From positions 20,206,481 through 20,270,480 of the forward strand of contig OX424561.1 in NCBI GenBank assembly GCA_949152475.1: 64,000 bases of DNA, written 5' to 3'. Positions 37,601 to 52,499 of this stretch are shown here, one piece after another. Origin of the DNA: Terebella lapidaria (Eukaryota > Annelida > Polychaeta > Terebellida > Terebellidae). Numbering within the stretch: position 1 is the stretch's first letter; the number at the start of each line of letters is the position of its first letter. The notes under the pieces are model-generated. The model was not told the DNA's origin. It saw nothing but the letters and a program-made list of their open reading frames with translations, and did not search any database. Made by a program: the position numbers and the translations under genes.

Positions 37601-39661
37601 GTATTATGAGCATGTAGGAAATCACATTATGAACAGTGTCAGATTTAGTTTGGCCATTACCTTACTGGCCAACTTGAGGCACTAGAGTCGATCGTACAAA
37701 AATATCAGTAAATGAGTACATTTATAGATCCATTCCAAGTCCTATACTGTTGCGTAGACATGAATGTCAATGTGAAAGTCCATTCATAAGAACCATGGGA
37801 ATGGAATCGACCACTTGGGCGTAGACCCACATGTTGACTTTTTACCATTACCTAATTTATACTTATTCACACCTGGCGGCACATATTTCCGGATAATACA
37901 GAATCATCCGAGCCAATTTATTACTGTTTGGCTCGCCCTCACTGTCGAATTTTCCGAGTACACAATTCATGGCACACATTTTTACGCTGTTCTTTAACTG
38001 ATGAAGAATTGAAAACTGAAAAAAAAATTGTTGTTCACCATAATGAGCAATAAATAAATGGCAGTTCAGTAGGCTACTAAAGCGTACTCAAAAGTTTGGG
38101 AGTATAACTCCAAAAATTACTAAACACTACATCGTAGAATACAGAAATACACCCAGATCACAACGTTGGATTGGGTTCGGTAAGGTTTAAAGATCTTGAA
38201 AATAGACTTTGGGATGAAGACAACGCCGAGCGACACGCATTGACCACACGCCATGACGCACTTGTTCATTATAGGTCTAAAATCCTGGTGATTCCCGAGA
38301 AAGTCCCCAGCCGAGGACTCTATCTCCCTCCCACATGTTTATTATATGTCTCAAAGCCTGCTGATTCCCGAGATTCACCAGACCCGATTCCTAAGGGCTC
38401 TGCCTATAGCACACAGTCATGTTCATGTCAAGTATGTCAAAGCCTGCTGATTCCCGACATTCACCCAAGCTGATTCATGAAAGCTCTGCAACCCTCAGTG
38501 ATCACCATTATGGTAAATCTTCCAGTGACTTTGAACTTGACCTCAGATGACACCGTGTGCTCTGATTTGGATTGAAACACTGGCCTTTGGAGTGGTCAGT
38601 AGTCTGGCGTGACATACAGAAATATGCATTAGGAAATAATTTCACGGTGACGTGCACCTGAACATTCTATGTACACCAAATGCTTGGAGATACAGATTAC
38701 ATATAGCAATTCATACTAGTACATCTCGTAATAACCTTGAACTTGACTGATCTGACACCGAGTTCATTGTAGACCTCGAACTTGATTCCACTTGATCTTG
38801 AGTACTTGGTCAGAAAACGACAATTTAGAGAAATAAGTTTGCGATCTACTATCTTTAAATAAACGATAATCTGGACAAATTGATGGTAAGCTGCAGCACC
38901 CTTGGTGTTGTTTTACCATTTCTAACATTAGGGCCTCTACCATTTTGTATTAGAATAAATGCAGACTGCATATCCAGGTCATACCGGCACTCGGTTACGA
39001 GATAGTCCCAAAATCGTGTTTTAATAACAATCAAACCAGCATTTTGATTTCCTACAAGAAAGTGCGCCAAAAAAAACACTATTATTGAATTTCTCCAAAC
39101 GAATTTCCACATTCTTCCATGTCAGATGGTCCCAAACACTAAGTTTTGCAAAAATCACATTACACAATGAACTGGTACTCAGTTTGAGTTGAGCCAGAGA
39201 AAATACATCCGATGAGCACTCGAATCGTCTCGATATCATCTTAGACGAGGGTCACCAAAAGATACACCATATATTACTTCCTATATGACCATGCATAGCA
39301 CAAAGTAAACTCTATGCAATTCAGTTTTTGGTGTCAATGAAACCCATTTGCGCATTTAGTGGTGCACACAACCCTGCCCACCCCATGGATGTTGGAGCAA
39401 TTAGGTTAATATTTAAGGACTACGGACTGTATTTCATCAGAAGCGAGGATGAAGTAATGCATTTAGGATTTAGCCATGCACTAATAAAAATGGCGGGCCC
39501 ATTCTAATCGAACCGTAATTACATATTTGATTTCATGTAAATACCCCTGTTATGGCCCGATATTACGTGATTTTGAAACGTCATTTTACGTTTTCCAAGC
39601 ACTATCTGTAGTTATCATCACATTCCTCGTAGATCTACCGTTGTGTCCATGTGATATCATA
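37601..39661. other. Intergenic DNA upstream of the RING gene
   Basis: No gene is recognised. A diverged tandem with TCAAAGCCTGCTGATTCCCG occurs near 38348 and 38436. The promoter and any 5' exon of the RING gene may lie here. A possible acceptor (TTCCTCGTAG near 39630) is in frame with the RING exon, so the true start may be further upstream. Confidence 0.4.
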
Positions 39662-41023
39662 ATGCTCCTGTCTCAGAGAAATGGCCCAACCTGTTGTGTG
39701 TGTAACACTGCCCTGTCTATGCGCAAATCCACCGAGGTTCCATGTGGGAAGCACCTGATTTGTGGCATTTGTTCGTCAGTCAACTCGGAATATTCAAGGC
39801 AGTGTTCAATATGTATGCCAGCAGATCCTAACGTGATGGGCAATGAGACGGACCTAATGGGAATCTGTAGGGCTCTCACACCCGAACCGATGCCGATGGA
39901 AGGTATACCAATCAAGTTGTCTTTGGAAAATAATGTGAAAACAAAACAAAATCAGCCAGCTATTCACAACATCAAGAGAATGACTATATACGTGACAATA
40001 AAATATACATGTCTCTGGTTGGGTAGGCAATTAATATCCAGATTTATGACCATCTCGCTTACATTTTGTAGGTCTATCAGAAGAGGATCTTTTCACTCAC
40101 GACGATGACATCGAGACGATGTTGTCCCCTCACGGTGTCGAGGTCTCTGGGGTTCGAGGGAAGGACGATCACCAAGCAAGCAAACCCTCGAGGGCCTCGG
40201 CAATGTCTCCTGTCCCCCAGGACCGGTCTCAGCAAAACCAAGCCCCAGGCCCTGCTCCCGCAGTGCCCATGGTACATCGCATTGACGCCAGCGGTAACAC
40301 CGTTCGCTACTTCCCCTACCGTGCAAAGCCAGTCAAACACTCGCAAGCGGCGAAGTCGACGGTCGACGATCGCTTCCAAGAGTTTGAGATGGTTCCCATG
40401 GCTGGTAAGGCTTTGGGTGGTGCGAGCAGACCACCCAAAACGAGTCGCGGAATCAAAGGTTTCACTGGTTACGACCCTAAGGTTGCCCTGGGGTCCGACG
40501 CCAGCATGAGCGCGGTAGAGCGTTTGGTGTTACACCCTACTTCGGGGGCTACTGGTGCAGACTCGTTCGACAGTTTCACACGGGTGGGTGCCACGGCTGC
40601 AGCTAATCCACCATGCACTGACCCTGGCCAGTCCGACCAGCCATCAAAAGCGGGATGGCATGGCATGGAAGGTCCCCAGGGCGTGACCGGCTCCGAAAGC
40701 AATCACAGTCTTCACAGCACAGTTAGCATCGAGAGAGGAACGTCTCCATGCAAAAGTGAGTGAAAATGAAGAGCAAAACCTCTGGATCTATTTACAAAAT
40801 GTGGGATCATTAATTAGTCTTTACGACGTCTAAATGTGGACAATTTTCAGACCGCCGGGGGCAGTTGCAGAAGGCAGTAGACTGGGTTCCGGCGGCCGTG
40901 CGGCCAGAGACAGCAGGTAGCGAGCAGTCCGGGGTGTCGGCAGGCAGTGACCACGTGTCGATGGATGACGACTGGATGTCCAGTGGAGCCAGGGAGTCGG
41001 AGGAAGACTTCTGGGGCATGTAG
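39662..41023 (+). CDS. RING-finger protein, probable E3 ubiquitin ligase (3 exons)
   Basis: The exons are 39662-39902, 40072-40755 and 40851-41023, with in-phase GT-AG junctions. The first exon holds a C3HC4 RING: CCVC, VPCGKHLICGIC and CSIC, i.e. C-x2-C-x13-C-x2-H-x2-C-x2-C-x10-C-x2-C. RING domains recruit E2 enzymes, so ubiquitin ligase activity is the likely role. The rest is disordered, Pro/Ser/Gly-rich sequence with YFPYRAKP and ending in an acidic-aromatic tail, DDDWMSSGARESEEDFWGM. No family is recognised. The start at 39662 is the first Met before the RING; an upstream exon is possible. The CARD gene lies 2 kb downstream in the same direction. Confidence 0.75.
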
Positions 41024-43050
41024 TCCACAGGTCGACTTTGGTTGACCACAGAAGATGACGACTGACGACGCCAAGTGGCGAAGAGAACCCGAAAATGATA
41101 TGTTCCTACTGTACTGTAATCAAAGAATTGATAAATCCTCTGTTGACTCTAAATAAAATTAATATCAAATCCAAGCATGCATTTCTCTCCAAATTACCTA
41201 CCAGGCTTATGTACTAATTGTAGTACACGAAAAATAGGACCAAATTTGTAGGACCAAAATAGGACCAAAAATAGGACCAAATTTGTATGATGACCGTTTC
41301 CTCATGGGAATACTAAAGTCAAGTTCAACACAAAACCTCGCATGAGGGATTAGGATGGTCGGATCAATTTGAAATTTTGTTTGTTTCCTTTTGGTATAAA
41401 ACCATATTTTTTCACCAAATTTCAGACTTCAATCTTTAAAATTGAAAACGTTGGCAATCTACTCCAATATTAATCACATCAAACATCGTATTCGCGAGTC
41501 TGAACAGAATTTGGCGTGCTGTTCGATGTTTAAATTGCACAGTACTTTGTAAGCATGATATTTTGTTGGAATACACCTGTATGATTCTTCTAACTCAGAA
41601 ACTTTCCTCATATTACATTTCTTAGCGGAATAAAGATCATGAAATCCAAATTTGTTTGAATTCCTGTGATCTGATTTGTGTCCAACATTTTAACATAGGG
41701 GTAAATTGCCAACTTCTACAGTTTTCAAGATAGAAGTCTGAAATTTAGCGAAAAAATACGGTTTATGCCAAATGGAAACATGTAAAATTTCAAATTGATC
41801 TGACCACCCCATACGAAGTTATCGCTCAAATCACATGAGATTTTGTGCTGAACTTGAGTATAGTAATAATTACCATGACAACCTTCAATTTGAGCAAAAG
41901 CTGTGAACTATATGCACTAATGCACTAGTGCTAAACAACACATATCTTGCACTGAACACGACTTGTGTTTTGGGTCATCTGATCTCAAGCTCAATTCGGC
42001 CAAATGCACAATACTAGTATCCTCCTTATTATATGTACATTCTCTCAGTACATACATGACACATCTTCAAGAAATCTCCTGTTTGACGCAATACGAACCT
42101 AAACAATACTAGTATTTAGGTTCAAAACCGAGTCTACGGTCCGACACATAATGGCATTGCGTTACGTCTGTCGACCGTCATCGGCGTCCGACGTCGAAAA
42201 CTTAGGAAGGTCGCATCTTTTATCTTTTCTGTTTTGAACGAATGGTCTACGTTACCAGGTTACGCTGGATCGAAAATTTGAAGATGAACAGCACAACTCC
42301 TTTTATCGGTATTCTAGTTGAGGCGGCCAGTGTCTATTCCAGTGTTGGTGTCAACAGCTGGTCACTCTCACCATGCGAGAGCTCTGTGTAATCGTGCTGG
42401 CGTCAGTCACCCAATTCGCAAGACAGGTTTAGGTCAGTTGCGTCATGTGCAACTTATTATACTCCAAGAAATGCTTATTTTGACGCCATTTTATGACACC
42501 TCATCCATTCGATTAGACATCAATATTCGCGCGCAAAGTAGGCAAGCCTAATATTAATCGTAATCCTAATACAGACCACGTCTAATATGCAACTTGTGCA
42601 ATGACATTCATTAACCTCCCGTTGCTCTATTCTTAATGGAGAAAGCAGTTAATCTCTTCTGAATGGATCATTTGTCAGCGGGTGTTTAATGGTATAGATT
42701 AATACAATAAAGATTAAGTGTTCATGGCGGACAGTATCGCCCTGAACCATACGGTGAGACGTTTACATGGAAATTGGCTGGATTGAGAGGCAATGAACCC
42801 CGAATGTTAGGGTAGCCCATTTTTCACATATATGTACCAACTTGCAAGTGGACGTAGTTGGTTCTATTGTATGTCGAGTCATGGTATTTTAGAGCCCATC
42901 AGCACAAGAACAAACCGTACGAGAGAAGAGACAGTTCACAATAGCAGGATATATTCACCAAAACGAGAAACACAAGCCTGCTACTTACATGAGAATATCT
43001 CCGATAAATCGTCCAAATAAACTGGCGACCACAGGCTAACGAAACGAAAG
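41024..43050. other. Intergenic DNA between the RING and CARD genes
   Basis: The stretch contains a hairpin MITE (41310-41865) and otherwise no recognised gene. AATAAA at about 41152 may end the RING transcript. The CARD gene promoter should lie in the last part. Confidence 0.5.
41310..41865. mobile_element. Hairpin MITE, cousin of the 33.6-kb element
   Basis: Inverted arms run from ATACTAAAGTCAAGTTCAAC through TGATCTGACC-like and ACCAAATTTCAGACTTC blocks to GTTGGCAATCTACTCCAAT, and back to GAACTTGAGTATAG. The central block matches the 33625-34184 element. No coding region. Confidence 0.7.
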
Positions 43051-45880
43051 ATGTCAAGCGGCGTACAGGAGGGGATGACGATCCCCGCTCTACTGATAGA
43101 CGGCATGCCTCCAGATAACGACACTCCGACGTCAGGCGCCCCAGCGGATCACGACACCCTGACGGCTACCAGGTCCGTGTCTCCAGCCGTGTCGACCTCG
43201 GACCTGACAGTGGAGTACCATTCAGACAGCGACAGCCCCCGCGCCCACGCTAACCCCGCGGCCCTGAAGCAGTTTTTCCAGCGCAAGCCCGTCCTTGACT
43301 ACTTCAGGATATATCTGGACGTCCGCGAGGACCTGCTCGTCCAGCTCAAGTTCGCCGGCATCCTGGACGAGGACACCTTCGACATCATCCAGGTACAGTA
43401 AGGCGTTTCAAAGTACTGGACACCTCCGATCGGGAACAAATACATTGCGACTTGGATAATAAAGGTTTATGGGTTTGAAAGAAAGGTCGAAGACATAATT
43501 GGCAAAACTGTTGGTACATGTACAACCACTGATCAATTAACCAGAGCAAACTACACGTAACCGATACTATGATTCGTTCTCCTAAGAGTACGCAAATATC
43601 AGTTTTCACTAAAGCCATGATCTCCTGACTGAGATATATAATATGATATCCCCTGCCTATCATAGGACCTGGGGTTCCCGGCCAATAGGTACGAATTGAT
43701 GGAGGTCATCATCCGACGCTCCTGGACGCACGAGCAGTTCGAGAACTTCTGTGCCGCCCTAAAAAACACTCAGGATGCCGGCTTCGTCCACAAGATCGTC
43801 TCCAAGGCGGAGGGCTACATCACGGCAAGTGAAGAAGGTATTAATCGTCCATCTGCCCAAAATTGCCTAGACAGTTGCTAAACCAAATCAGTTCACAAGC
43901 TGTAAGTCATTCTTGATCTTGTATCAGAACTGATTCCAGCAGTAAACTAAAGGACCTCACTTTGCGCATAATAGGCTTGGGCAGTCAAATGATGATACGG
44001 TGTGATTCTGCTGACAAACAGGTACAGGTATACACATATTGTTTACAAGAGCAATTACGGAACAAACAACTCAAAATGATTTGAATAACTCAGACAAAAC
44101 ATATAAGTATCCGCGACAGCAGAATCGCACCGTATCGGCATGTCACTACCCAGCCCTATTTCCATAATTCCGCCTAAAACTGATTATTCAACTTGATTAT
44201 TGCCCCATGTCCAGAGCGTCTGCGACAGGACGCGCTGGACGTGTTGGATGATTCCCCGTGTGAGGGATACTACACCCTGGCGGAGCTGGAGGGCCTCGAC
44301 CAGCACAAGCAAAAGTCCATCAAAACCAAGCTCAAAGTCAAGGACGATCTGATCCGGGACATGCACATCGAGAACAAGGCCAATAAGATGGCACTGGACT
44401 CCCTGACACAGGAGCACGACAACATCAAATCCAAGTACGTCACAGTTCAGACACTACTCTATTCCGCATTTTCGAAAATATCAGTAGATCTATATCCCAT
44501 CGAGAACAAGTTAGTATTCAGACATTTATGTCTAAAATGTAATCACATCGTACTGTGTGATACTGTTGTAATGTAAACCACCAAGGCATGTTTGATTTCG
44601 TCAGGTTTGTTGCCCTAGACAAGTCAGTGCGGGACGTGTTGGACTCTATTGGATCCTCGGATGATAATGTCGATACTTCGGTTTGCGTCGCTCTCAGTTC
44701 GCTCAAGGACACTGTGAGGAGCGAGAGGAAGCAGCTGGTCGAGCTGGAGAGGGACTACAACAAGGTACAGGTCGAGCTCGTGCAGCTAGAGCTCAAACAC
44801 GGCCGCCTCAACCGGGAGCACGGAGAACTCCAGGAGAAGCTGGACGGCATCAACGGGCTAATGGAGAAGGAACGAGAGGTCATGAAGGAACAACTGGAAG
44901 CTCTCGAACATAGCCTCGTCAGTTCAAAGGCTAAGAACGAGGAGCTTCAATTCAAAGTCGACGGGCTGCAAGATATATTCGGAGGGCACATTAGAGAACT
45001 AGAACATCAGCTGCGCGTTAAAGACAAGCATCTCATGAGGAAGTCGCGGGAAGTCGAGAGAGCTATTGCTGAGCGAGACGAGGCTCGGGGTCAAATCAGC
45101 GGCATCAAGGATCAGATGAGGAGGCTTCTCCGCACCTTGGGTCTGACGAATAGCAGAGGTCAGATGTCACTTGAACAGGCTCGAAATATCTCAGATGTCA
45201 TGAAGCCTAGGAGATGGAAGAATCAGAGCCACTTGGACACCAACGACGCCGACCTGGACAAAGATTTAGTTGTGGAAATTCTTGAGATGCTTAACTCTGT
45301 AAACGAGAAGCATCTGTCCACTGGAGATGCTGTTGTTGAAGAACTTTTAGATGCCATCGAAGCAGCAAACGATTCTCATCAGAGACCATTGTCGCCATCT
45401 CGATCCCCGCAACTGAGGCGCTCTATGGCTGAACACAGCTCCCCAAACTCAAGAAAGAGCACACCAAAAGTTCACACGTCAGCACCACACGTCAACATAG
45501 TTTCATTCACTGCTCTCTCAGACGAAGTACACCTCCCCAATGTGAACACGGGTCCCGACAAGACAAATCTACTGAAGATACATGATAAGTACCAAGGGTC
45601 AGCGCCTCGTCCGAGCTCACCGTCGCCCCGATCCAGACAGGCCTCGCCTTGCCCGGACAGGGACATCCCCACTCTCCTCTGTTTAGTCTGTGACAAGATA
45701 TTCACAGAGCCCTCGAACCACAACAACGCCTGTATGCATCACGTCAGTGGAGCCACCAAGCTCTACGAGGGAACAGAACTAGAGGTGTGGTCATGCTGCA
45801 AGAGCAGAGATTCTCTCAAAGGCTGCCAGAGGGGCCGGCACCAGGCTGCTAATATCGACACAAACCCAGAATACTTGTAA
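43051..45880 (+). CDS. CARD-coiled-coil protein with C-terminal CHORD-like zinc motif (4 exons, 669 aa)
   Basis: Exons 43051-43392, 43666-43837, 44215-44434 and 44605-45880 join in phase (2010 nt). Residues about 71-166 form a CARD-type death fold (LLVQLKFAGILDEDTFDII, then RYELMEVIIRRSWTHEQFENF). Residues about 200-250 and 280-425 are heptad-rich coiled coil. A Ser/Pro/Arg-rich linker follows to about 598. Residues 604-658 carry a CHORD-like metal site: CLVC, NACMHH, VWSCC and GCQRGRH. CARDs mediate homotypic assembly in apoptotic and immune signalling, and CARD-coiled-coil proteins such as CARD9/11 nucleate signalling filaments. The CHORD-like end is unlike those. A CARD split by a phase-0 intron is visible between exons 1 and 2. 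The CARD and CHORD calls rest on motif spacing, not a search. Confidence 0.82.
43972..44158. mobile_element. Small hairpin MITE in CARD gene intron 2
   Basis: The ends TAGGCTTGGGCAGTCAAATG, then GATACGGTGTGATTCTGCTG, return inverted as CAGCAGAATCGCACCGTATC and GTCACTACCCAGCCCTA. The GGCTGGG tip followed by ATACGGTGCGAT resembles a common animal hAT-type MITE end, from memory. Confidence 0.65.
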
Positions 45881-45993: not shown

Positions 45994-45999
45994 AATAAA
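45994..45999 (+). terminator. Poly(A) signal of the CARD gene
   Basis: AATAAA lies 114 nt after the TAA stop. The opposing signals of the S10 gene lie about 20 bp further on. Confidence 0.65.
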
Positions 46000-46276: not shown

Positions 46277-47649
46277 CTAGCTCATGACTTCACTCTTTTT
46301 CTCTGGAGGTTTCAAGTGCTCCGGTATTTTTTCAATTCGGTGCTGAAAATAGAAACAAAGGATTCACAATCATATTTCCATATTGTACACCAGGTTAACA
46401 TGGAAAACAATGTATTGAGAAAATGTAAGTTACTCCTATAGCTTGACTGATATGTACAAACAGTACGCCTGTAGATGTACATCACATGCTACTGTTTTGT
46501 TGAATACCTTGGTGACTTTCATGGCCATTCCCTCAGGCAGGTTCCTCTGAATGTACTCCAGGAAAGTGTCGGCCGTTGAACCAGTTAGACGCTTGAACTG
46601 AGAGATAAAAGACATATTCATCATCAAAATCTAATTTTACTTTTGCATCCATGTACACGATATTTGTCAGACGTAGCCACTCAACTGACCTCAAAGCATT
46701 TGTAATGTGTTCTGGTCTCGTACTGCACGAAATGTTTCTTGTAAACGTGGACAGACTTCAGCATGCTCCATCTTTTGATCTCTCTTCGCGGAGTTCTTCT
46801 GTGGAAGTTATTGGTATAATCAGAAATTCAGAACGAGAGATGCATTTCCAGGATAATGTCAGTCATTGAATAGAGGCCTCACAATATCCATGTCATGAAC
46901 GTACTCTAGCGAAATATGAATCTACTCCCATGTGCATACACCATATATTATGAATCATTTAAGTTGGAGCTTTACATATAAAGGAGAGCTCACATGTTCT
47001 CTAATGTCAGATCCAGTTCATGTGCTGCCAACTTGACAAACTTCGTGTAGCTGGCAATGACTGCAGGATCATGCCCCTTCACTTCAATCTCCAACGTCTT
47101 ATACAACGAGTCCGGCTCGGGTTTCTGAAGGGTTCAAGTGTTACATACATTATGCCTACATATATCATGTATATTGATTGCACACATTCATCAGCAACCA
47201 CAGACTTTTCCGAAAACTCACCTGCACTGCTGTTGAAAAGTGATTGTGGATTTTCGAGACCGCTGGGTGTAGATCGATATTTTCTCTGGAAACAGAGAGC
47301 AAATTGCAGTGTTGTATCATTCATCAGAATATAGAACAGGAGTGGTAATTGTAGTAGTAAGCATACAAAACAATGGTTCGCATATTGTGAGGATGAATAA
47401 GCACATACTGATATCAAACAAATACAAGAGATGATCTTTTTGAACTACAGTGTATACGTATTTACCGATAAACAAATCATTTAGAGTGTTCCAAATTCCA
47501 CAATAAATTTCAGTGTTCCTAAATCATGTAAATTGTCATAATTTTGGCAGTCATGTCCAAGAAGATTGAATTCATACATACTGGACAAGTGCTTGCTTGA
47601 AAGGAGATCCACAATGAGCAGCCGAATACCGAGTACAGATCGGAACCTC
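46277..47649 (-). CDS. MRPS10: Mitochondrial small-subunit ribosomal protein S10 (6 exons seen, first exon missing)
   Basis: Exons 47582-47649, 47222-47285, 46994-47124, 46690-46798, 46508-46597 and 46277-46342 join in phase (175 codons plus stop). The sequence matches vertebrate MRPS10 closely in [46 protein letters not shown] and PEHLKPPE, with the usual N-side [11 protein letters not shown] block. It belongs to the head of the mitochondrial small ribosomal subunit. The first exon seen starts in phase 0 with [12 protein letters not shown], so a further exon with the start Met and part of the targeting peptide must lie to the right; I could not identify it. It is convergent with the CARD gene. 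Confidence 0.9.
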
Positions 47650-50624: not shown

Positions 50625-51295
50625 TGACCAGTTGGGAAGAAGGGGTATACGCGACCCGGCCGCACACGCGACCCGGCCGCCCGTTACCTCCCATATATCA
50701 TAGTGCTCGCAGCAGCAGTGTGATCACCTGCATGCATGCATGGACGAACATGCCTGGGTGCCGATTGAAGTGTCGTGGTCTCTGATGCATTGTATGTTTG
50801 AGATGCTCGACTAATCATGTTTAATAGTGTAATAAATAAACCATGTTGATTTACTGAAACTTATCTGATTCAACTGATTCAAACTTATCTGATTCAAACT
50901 ATCATGCGCCTCATATTTAATTCTGGTGGCTGCTTGACAGTTTTCTGCTTTTTTATTGCACTTTTGGTTTTTTGTCTGGTGGCTTCCTTAAATCTGCCTC
51001 CAATCCCTCAACAGTTAAAGGATTCTTCACAGCTTCTGTATACCTTTTTTTGTTGTACGTGGCGAATGGATGCCATGCAGTAATCTAGTACTTTAGTGCT
51101 AGCTGAGCGCTATGATATACGACATTACGAGAGGTAACGGGCGGCCGGGTCGCCAATGGGCATATATGTCACCAAATGGGATTCTTTTGGTGGCATATAT
51201 GTGTCAATGGGCAAACATGCCACCAAATGGGATTCTTTTGGTGGCATATATGTCAATGGGCAAACATGCCACCAAATGGGATTATTCCCAACTGA
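50625..51295. mobile_element. GC-rich-ended hairpin element with internal tandem repeats
   Basis: The left arm has CAGTTGGGAAGAAGGGG, CGACCCGGCCGCCCGTTACC and ATATCATAGTGCTC near 50630-50725. The right arm returns GAGCGCTATGATATAC, GGTAACGGGCGGCCGGGTCG (about 51105-51152) and CCCAACTG near 51288. Between the GC-rich block and the right end lie about three copies of a 45-50-bp unit, CATATATGTCAATGGGCAAA plus CATGCCACCAAATGGGATT (about 51155-51285). Confidence 0.65.
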
Positions 51296-52499
51296 TGTCG
51301 TGATGACCCGACTTTGAAGTTTGAGCGATAATGGAGTAATGTTCTCATTCATGTGAAGAATACAATCTGAATGGGCGACTCGTAATGAAACGCCTTCAAA
51401 AAATTTTCACACAGTCATGAGAATATCATAATTAATCAGCAATAGTTACTGTTACCGAACATTTCCTATAAATATTGCGAAGTACAAAATAACTCCGGCT
51501 AATGGGCGCCGCCATTTTTTCCAAATGATAAAAAGCGTCACGAATTTGTAGAACGATTATACACTCTTCGTGTAAGGTTTCTCGTAAATCACGGGAGGTG
51601 GGGGGGGGGGAGTGGGACGAGAGAGGGAGGAGTAATCTAGGGGGTCGTAAATAGTCGGGAAGTCTGGTTTTTAATACTCTTGCTTCGAACATTGATGTTT
51701 CCATATTTTAGTAACCGTCGAAAACTACAATTTTCGAAGCGATGTTTCATACATCAACGATAAAATTCAGCAGGTAGGCCTATATCACGAATTATGTAAT
51801 CCAAATACGTAATCTATCGTAAGTTTAGGCCAACCTGGTAAAGTGATAACGAGATCTAGATCTATAACAAAAATAAATGGGCATACTATTCAACCCCACA
51901 ATCCCAGTAGATCTAGTTTCCCTGAAACTATTCACTTCAAGTACACATATCGATGGTTGAAAAACTGTTCGATTTTGACAATGAACATTTTATGATATCC
52001 AAGTTATTCCTGGGAGAGACACCGAATATTTGATGATATATAACTTGAGGCATCAACTTGAAGTTGCAATAAAATTTCCACAACAAAATAATCAGATATT
52101 CACATGGCAACTGATTTTTCATTTTCTGTTGTAAATGGCCTAAAGATGTGGTTGTAAATGGCCATATCGAATATTCCATAAACATGAGAGACAATGTGAA
52201 CGAAAAAGCTTATAAGGGTCATATGACTTTTTTATTCCGAAATTGGCATTTTTAACCCTTAATAGCACATCATGGAGCCTCGGAGGCCCCACTCGATTAA
52301 TGTTGGCTCACCCCCATCATTGCTTACCAGGGCAATATAACTTAAGATATTCCTGCAACTATCACCTACCATTGTTGCTATGATTTTAGGTACCACCAGG
52401 TCAAAGCTAATTCAACGTAATACGTCATTTTATACAAGCACCCCCTTACCAATGGGGGTCTGACATTATTATATATATTATATTATTATTATTATACGT
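51296..52499. other. Intergenic stretch
   Basis: No gene is recognised. A G-run lies at 51600-51612. The rest is AT-rich unique DNA with TATTAT repeats near 52465-52495. Confidence 0.45.

Follow-up and report, generated by a model that had tools for sequence, protein, structure and literature searches.

A gene of the polychaete Terebella lapidaria is predicted to encode a protein in which a CARD-like segment, a long coiled coil and a C-terminal CHORD-like zinc module follow each other in one chain. The gene is located in a stretch of 64,000 nucleotides (contig OX424561.1, positions 20,206,481 to 20,270,480 of the forward strand), here referred to as the window. With moderate confidence we favour the reading that this is one protein-coding gene whose product is an oligomeric scaffold of the death-fold type, with a zinc module for docking at its C-terminus. 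Directly supported are the gene model, the CHORD-like similarity with a full ligand set, the heptad periodicity and a weak similarity to a CARD profile. The combination suggests an unstudied signalling scaffold, the CARD part being weakly supported. Among the papers listed in literature searches none treated a combination of CARD and CHORD; the earlier note on this DNA knew of no described protein joining the two. Uncharacterised orthologues with this architecture may well be on record in protein databases.

Gene structure and occurrence in the genome

The predicted gene runs on the plus strand from an ATG at 43051 to a stop codon ending at 45880, and its four exons join into a single frame of 669 amino acids without internal stop codons. 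All three introns (273, 377 and 170 bases) are GT-AG introns. The GC content of exons 1 to 4 is 0.61, 0.56, 0.55 and 0.52, that of the introns 0.37-0.40, and GC3 is 0.67, a coding-type value. An in-frame TAA is present at 43018, upstream of the ATG. The four-exon model of the earlier note is thereby upheld at the level of DNA sequence. Its features are as follows.

43051..43392, + strand: exon 1 (residues 1-114), with start codon, leader and the N-terminal half of the CARD-like segment; open frame, donor CAG/GTACAG, GC 0.614
43666..43837, + strand: exon 2 (from residue 115), completing the CARD-like segment; GT-AG splice sites
44215..44434, + strand: exon 3, linker and beginning of the coiled coil; GT-AG splice sites, open frame
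44605..45880, + strand: exon 4, with coiled coil, a linker rich in Ser and Pro, the CHORD-like module and the stop codon, in one frame
45680..45841, + strand: CHORD-like zinc module (residues 604-657), from Pfam CHORD, PDB 2yrt and hhalign to CHORDC1
45994..45999, + strand: AATAAA, candidate polyadenylation signal

The leader in exon 1 (residues 1-67) has no recognised domain. The exon 4 frame comprises 439 codons from stop to stop. Since this uninterrupted exon encodes both coiled coil and zinc motif, their linkage is independent of splicing, whereas the joining of the CARD-like part to them does depend on splicing. A search of the genome (761.6 Mb, 438 contigs) with the full protein retrieved its own locus and one weak site on contig C16 (5 matches in total; 14 candidates scored). 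No relatives were found among prokaryote genome contigs with exon 4 as query (23 pattern matches), nor among viral contigs with the module as query (42 pattern matches).

The C-terminal CHORD-like module

The assignment of the C-terminus to a CHORD-like module is supported by several sequence comparisons, in line with the relationship proposed in the earlier note. The motif reads C604-x2-C607-x13-C621-x2-H624-x15-W640-x-C642-C643-x8-C652-x4-H657. Six cysteines and two histidines are kept (C604, C607, C621, H624, C642, C643, C652 and H657), which by analogy would act as ligands. CHORDs are described as containing two C3H motifs each (PMC12129344), and the Cys/His count of the module fits the requirement for two C3H zinc sites. 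Pfam CHORD (PF04968) matched the isolated 76-residue C-terminus with 22.9 bits (E 1.3e-4), below the gathering cut-off of 24.6 bits, and the full-length protein with 17.2 bits (E 0.0078). A PDB sequence search with the module gave CHORDC1 (2yrt, E 5e-4) and RAR1 (2xcm, E 0.014) as best matches. In a pairwise hhalign comparison with CHORDC1 the module reached a score of 41.5 (95.3 %), while the highest of 40 shuffles with fixed Cys, His and Trp positions was 26.1; the similarity thus exceeds the ligand pattern. The MSL2 RING model was also considered for the C-terminus and was rejected, since its match (E 0.017) is weaker than that of CHORD. The predicted structure of the zinc module has a mean pLDDT of 44, too low for a usable fold.

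CHORDC1 (Morgana) and plant RAR1 are CHORD co-chaperones of HSP90 and SGT1. The module of the window protein finds its best sequence match in these proteins and shares with them six cysteines and two histidines in the same order. The spacings differ: CHORDC1 has C-x4-C and CC-x14-GC, the window module C-x2-C and CC-x7-GC. Furthermore, CHORDC1 and RAR1 carry two tandem CHORDs, whereas a Pfam scan of the window protein found one matched stretch. Unlike in CHORDC1 and RAR1, this stretch shares its chain with a coiled coil and a CARD-like segment. In melusin and Chp1 a CS domain is reported to sit in the same protein (PMC2935968), and for RAR1 it is in the partner; in the window protein a Pfam scan (E up to 1) found no CS domain.

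REXO1 and its yeast counterpart Rex3 are described as single-CHORD proteins (PMC12129344). The REXO1 gene of the same genome was located through PF15870 and, by eye, shows both C-x2-C and CC-x7-GC. The short stretch between WSCC and GC, correctly pointed out in the earlier note, thus has a parallel in another CHORD. Judged from these sequences, REXO1 would offer a precedent for the short form only, without implying descent from REXO1. REXO1 has C-x17-C where the window module has C-x13-C (by eye), the window protein shows neither an exonuclease nor an EloA-BP1 match (Pfam scan), and the hhalign score between the two modules (17.2) is within that of Cys/His/Trp-fixed shuffles, which reach 24.5.

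One further site with the module was found in the genome, at C16:2819188; intron-split modules could escape this search, as is apparent from REXO1, which was missing from the CHORD family search of the genome. The C16 gene resembles the window gene in encoding a coiled-coil protein that ends in the same short CHORD-like module, and its last open frame has 471 codons. The two modules match each other with E 0.0017 in one direction and 6.5e-5 in the other (39-40 % identity), and their hhalign score is 48.5 (96.6 %), against a maximum of 30.6 in 40 Cys/His/Trp-fixed shuffles. The C16 module taken separately scored 12.2 bits with Pfam CHORD and 23.8 with CHORDC1, not above Cys/His/Trp-fixed shuffles (25.5). 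A profile of both modules gave weaker PDB matches than the window module (2yrt, E 0.0025; RAR1, 0.19). The C16 gene differs from the window gene in that a CARD was recognised nowhere in its scanned pieces or frames: Pfam scans of the pieces found none, and with a CARD profile no frame of at least 50 amino acids exceeded 2.7 bits in two overlapping stretches (15 kb together), in which an intron-split CARD could escape.

Contig C4 (42090390-42091615) and the small contig C277 carry ordinary CHORD matches. On the latter (24,166 bases) a stretch (L025) has a GC content of 31 %, compared to 43 % for the window, and its CHORD-coding frames are open only when TAA and TAG are read as Gln. It is probably derived from a ciliate present in the assembly as contaminant or associate. 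The hhalign score of the window module with a ciliate CHORD was 17.4, within Cys/His/Trp-fixed shuffles (which reach 25.5). Weak CHORD matches on C17 (20.9 bits, one internal stop) and C2 (17.8 bits, open frame, profile positions 29-52 only) were taken as chance because no Cys/His pattern was found at either locus.

The N-terminal CARD-like segment

Residues 68-171 probably form a divergent CARD, as far as profile comparisons allow; this assignment is unproven. No Pfam family, CARD included, matched these residues at E up to 1, and the one PDB sequence match (E 1.5) is not meaningful. A CARD profile was built from 18 of the 20 Pfam CARD hits of the genome plus human CARD9, omitting L038, which nearly duplicates L008, and the partial hit L048. 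With this profile residues 68-169 scored 12.5 bits (single-comparison E 6e-6), and hhalign gave 69.9 %, compared to at most 1.6 % for 20 shuffles and 0.5 % for the reversed segment. The alignment spans residues 93-151, across exons 1 and 2. A Death domain was rejected for this segment: a profile of 25 Death domains gave 0.8 % (hhalign) and -0.7 bits, within shuffles.

A broader background of 2211 rows of frames and domains (1825 distinct) was scored with the profile extended by a CARD found on contig C1 (see below). Known CARD loci were excluded from this background, in which overlapping loci contribute some frames more than once and fragments of the window gene itself are present. The segment ranked second with 12.0 bits, after a CARD-like frame of L063 (34.1 bits); the best unrelated frame scored 8.8 bits, equal to the score of the full-length window protein. 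Twenty CARDs held out one at a time scored 34.3-99.5 bits, each far above the window segment, a range that is biased upwards since 18 of the 20 were picked by the Pfam CARD model. In the same runs the segment itself scored 8.4-14.5 bits, shifting with the make-up of the profile. The earlier note had advised profile searches of both ends of the protein. They returned CHORD, below threshold, for the C-terminus; the CARD that it had placed at the N-terminus was absent from Pfam and without a meaningful PDB match, and obtained weak support from the own-genome profile, above shuffles and unrelated frames.

The L063 frame (~909-1265) lies close to a Death domain and is absent among the Pfam CARD hits. 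We take this arrangement to be a CRADD-like layout.

Coiled coil and comparison with CARD9 and CARD11

The coiled coil claimed in the earlier note is visible as a heptad hydrophobic contrast that is mostly raised (0.38-0.78) where 28-residue windows begin between about residues 216 and 420. Past residue 530 values of 0.5-0.55 are still found in places and the contrast has no shuffle control, so that it serves as a description and not as a formal coiled-coil test. An NCBIfam scan returned generic coiled-coil matches (best E 2.6e-4) as well as unrelated families.

With its long coiled coil placed after a CARD-like segment, the window protein shares the layout of the CARD-CC family (CARD9, CARD10, CARD11 and CARD14). 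CARD9 and CARD11 are reported to be kept inactive by an interface of the CARD with the coiled coil, its disruption leading to filaments that template BCL10 (PMC6624267). Invertebrate CARD-CC proteins were described by Staal et al. (PMC5978004), in a paper whose main text does not contain the words CHORD or zinc. The genome of T. lapidaria has a CARD9-like CARD of its own, separate from the window gene, in two exons at C1:79192600-79195000 (first half at L050:3600-3848, second exon at L050:5857-6159). At C1:79194884 it shows 49 % identity to CARD9 residues 62-100 (~39 residues, E 0.009), and the location of its first half in a separate exon places the exon border close to CARD9 residue 62. A probable second CARD9-like CARD, read for its second half only, is located at C14:4263799 (L030, L052; 42 % identity over ~39 residues, E 0.107). 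Close to the C1 gene lies a long frame (L051:2941-4074), which presumably is a fragment of a LINE-type reverse transcriptase.

The joined C1 CARD scored 127 in pairwise comparison with human CARD9 and the window segment 26, a score matched by 99 of 300 shuffles. Comparison of the window segment with the canonical C1 CARD gave a score that was matched by 19 of 300 shuffles. The window domain is broken after residue 114, by eye upstream of the border in the C1 gene. The window coiled coil scored 49 with CARD9 residues 101-214, and 58 of 300 register-preserving shuffles matched this; the C16 protein scored 38 and the best windows of three other frames 86, 82 and 54, the last three being a biased control since these frames were fetched by a CARD9 search. 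The window protein thus differs from CARD-CC proteins in its weak CARD score, its break point, a coiled coil that is not specifically similar and its terminal zinc module. The CARD9/11-type likeness suggested in the earlier note is reduced to a general layout, neither part being clearly above shuffles in comparison with CARD9.

Proposed function and alternative explanations

We infer oligomerisation, CARD-CARD assembly, zinc binding, a docking role and the location in the cell. The long coiled coil would gather copies of the protein and bring their N-terminal CARD-like domains to a higher local concentration; clustered in this way, the domains may assemble or recruit a CARD partner. By analogy with CARD9 and CARD11, the coiled coil perhaps also restrains these domains. 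The CHORD-like module would bind zinc, with two C3H sites expected, and most likely serve as a protein docking or control surface.

The main competitor of this scaffold is a coiled-coil protein with the same C-terminal CHORD-like docking finger but with an N-terminal helical domain that is not a CARD, and with a cytoskeletal or trafficking role. It is a possible, if doubtful, explanation. The N-terminus has neither a Pfam family nor a meaningful PDB match, and the C16 gene, the only other module gene found, shows no CARD in its scanned pieces and frames; however, the segment stands out from shuffles and unrelated frames with the CARD profile, but not with the Death-domain profile. A divergent member of the CARD9/10/11/14 family, nucleating BCL10 for MALT1, would have its CARD-like domain and coiled coil in the order observed. 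Membership of this family is nevertheless quite improbable: the CARD9-like CARD on C1, which far outscores the window segment, and its probable second copy on C14 argue against it, as do the different domain break and the CARD and coiled-coil scores near those of shuffles. Even less credit is given to a model that fuses two adjacent genes, or to a pseudogene. The gene model was predicted from DNA alone, which leaves room for such errors, but the absence of internal stops, the clean splice sites and frame in all four exons and the coding-type GC3 speak against them.

The preferred scaffold, with its CARD-like segment, coiled coil and CHORD-like module in one animal protein, would allow a direct link from death-fold assembly to CHORD docking to be tested. 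Two coiled-coil proteins, neither of them CHORDC1, melusin or REXO1, end in the short CHORD-like module. A more specific version is considered unlikely: here CARD assembly and the recruitment of HSP90/SGT1 or the IKK complex by the CHORD module would be coupled within the same chain. HSP90-dependent NLR function is reported to require the CHORD protein Rar1, in plants at least (PMC2935968), and in breast cancer cells Morgana has been reported to belong to the IKK complex and to be needed for IkBa recruitment (PMC5696377). A contact of the window protein with HSP90, SGT1 or IKK would involve one lone module whose spacing is non-canonical and which has no CS domain next to it. If true, such coupling would give animals a counterpart of the plant RAR1-NLR link and place chaperone control within the signalling assembly.

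Neighbouring sequences

Upstream of the gene, at 39488-40763 on the plus strand, two frames are present, one of which has a RING-like Cys pattern (by eye); no Pfam family matched them at E up to 0.01. The downstream neighbour, at 46436-46630 on the minus strand, is an exon matching Ribosomal_S10 with 22.6 bits (cut-off 21.2), which perhaps encodes part of mitochondrial ribosomal protein S10. Further downstream, translations of 51103-51406 display short repeated units (by eye).
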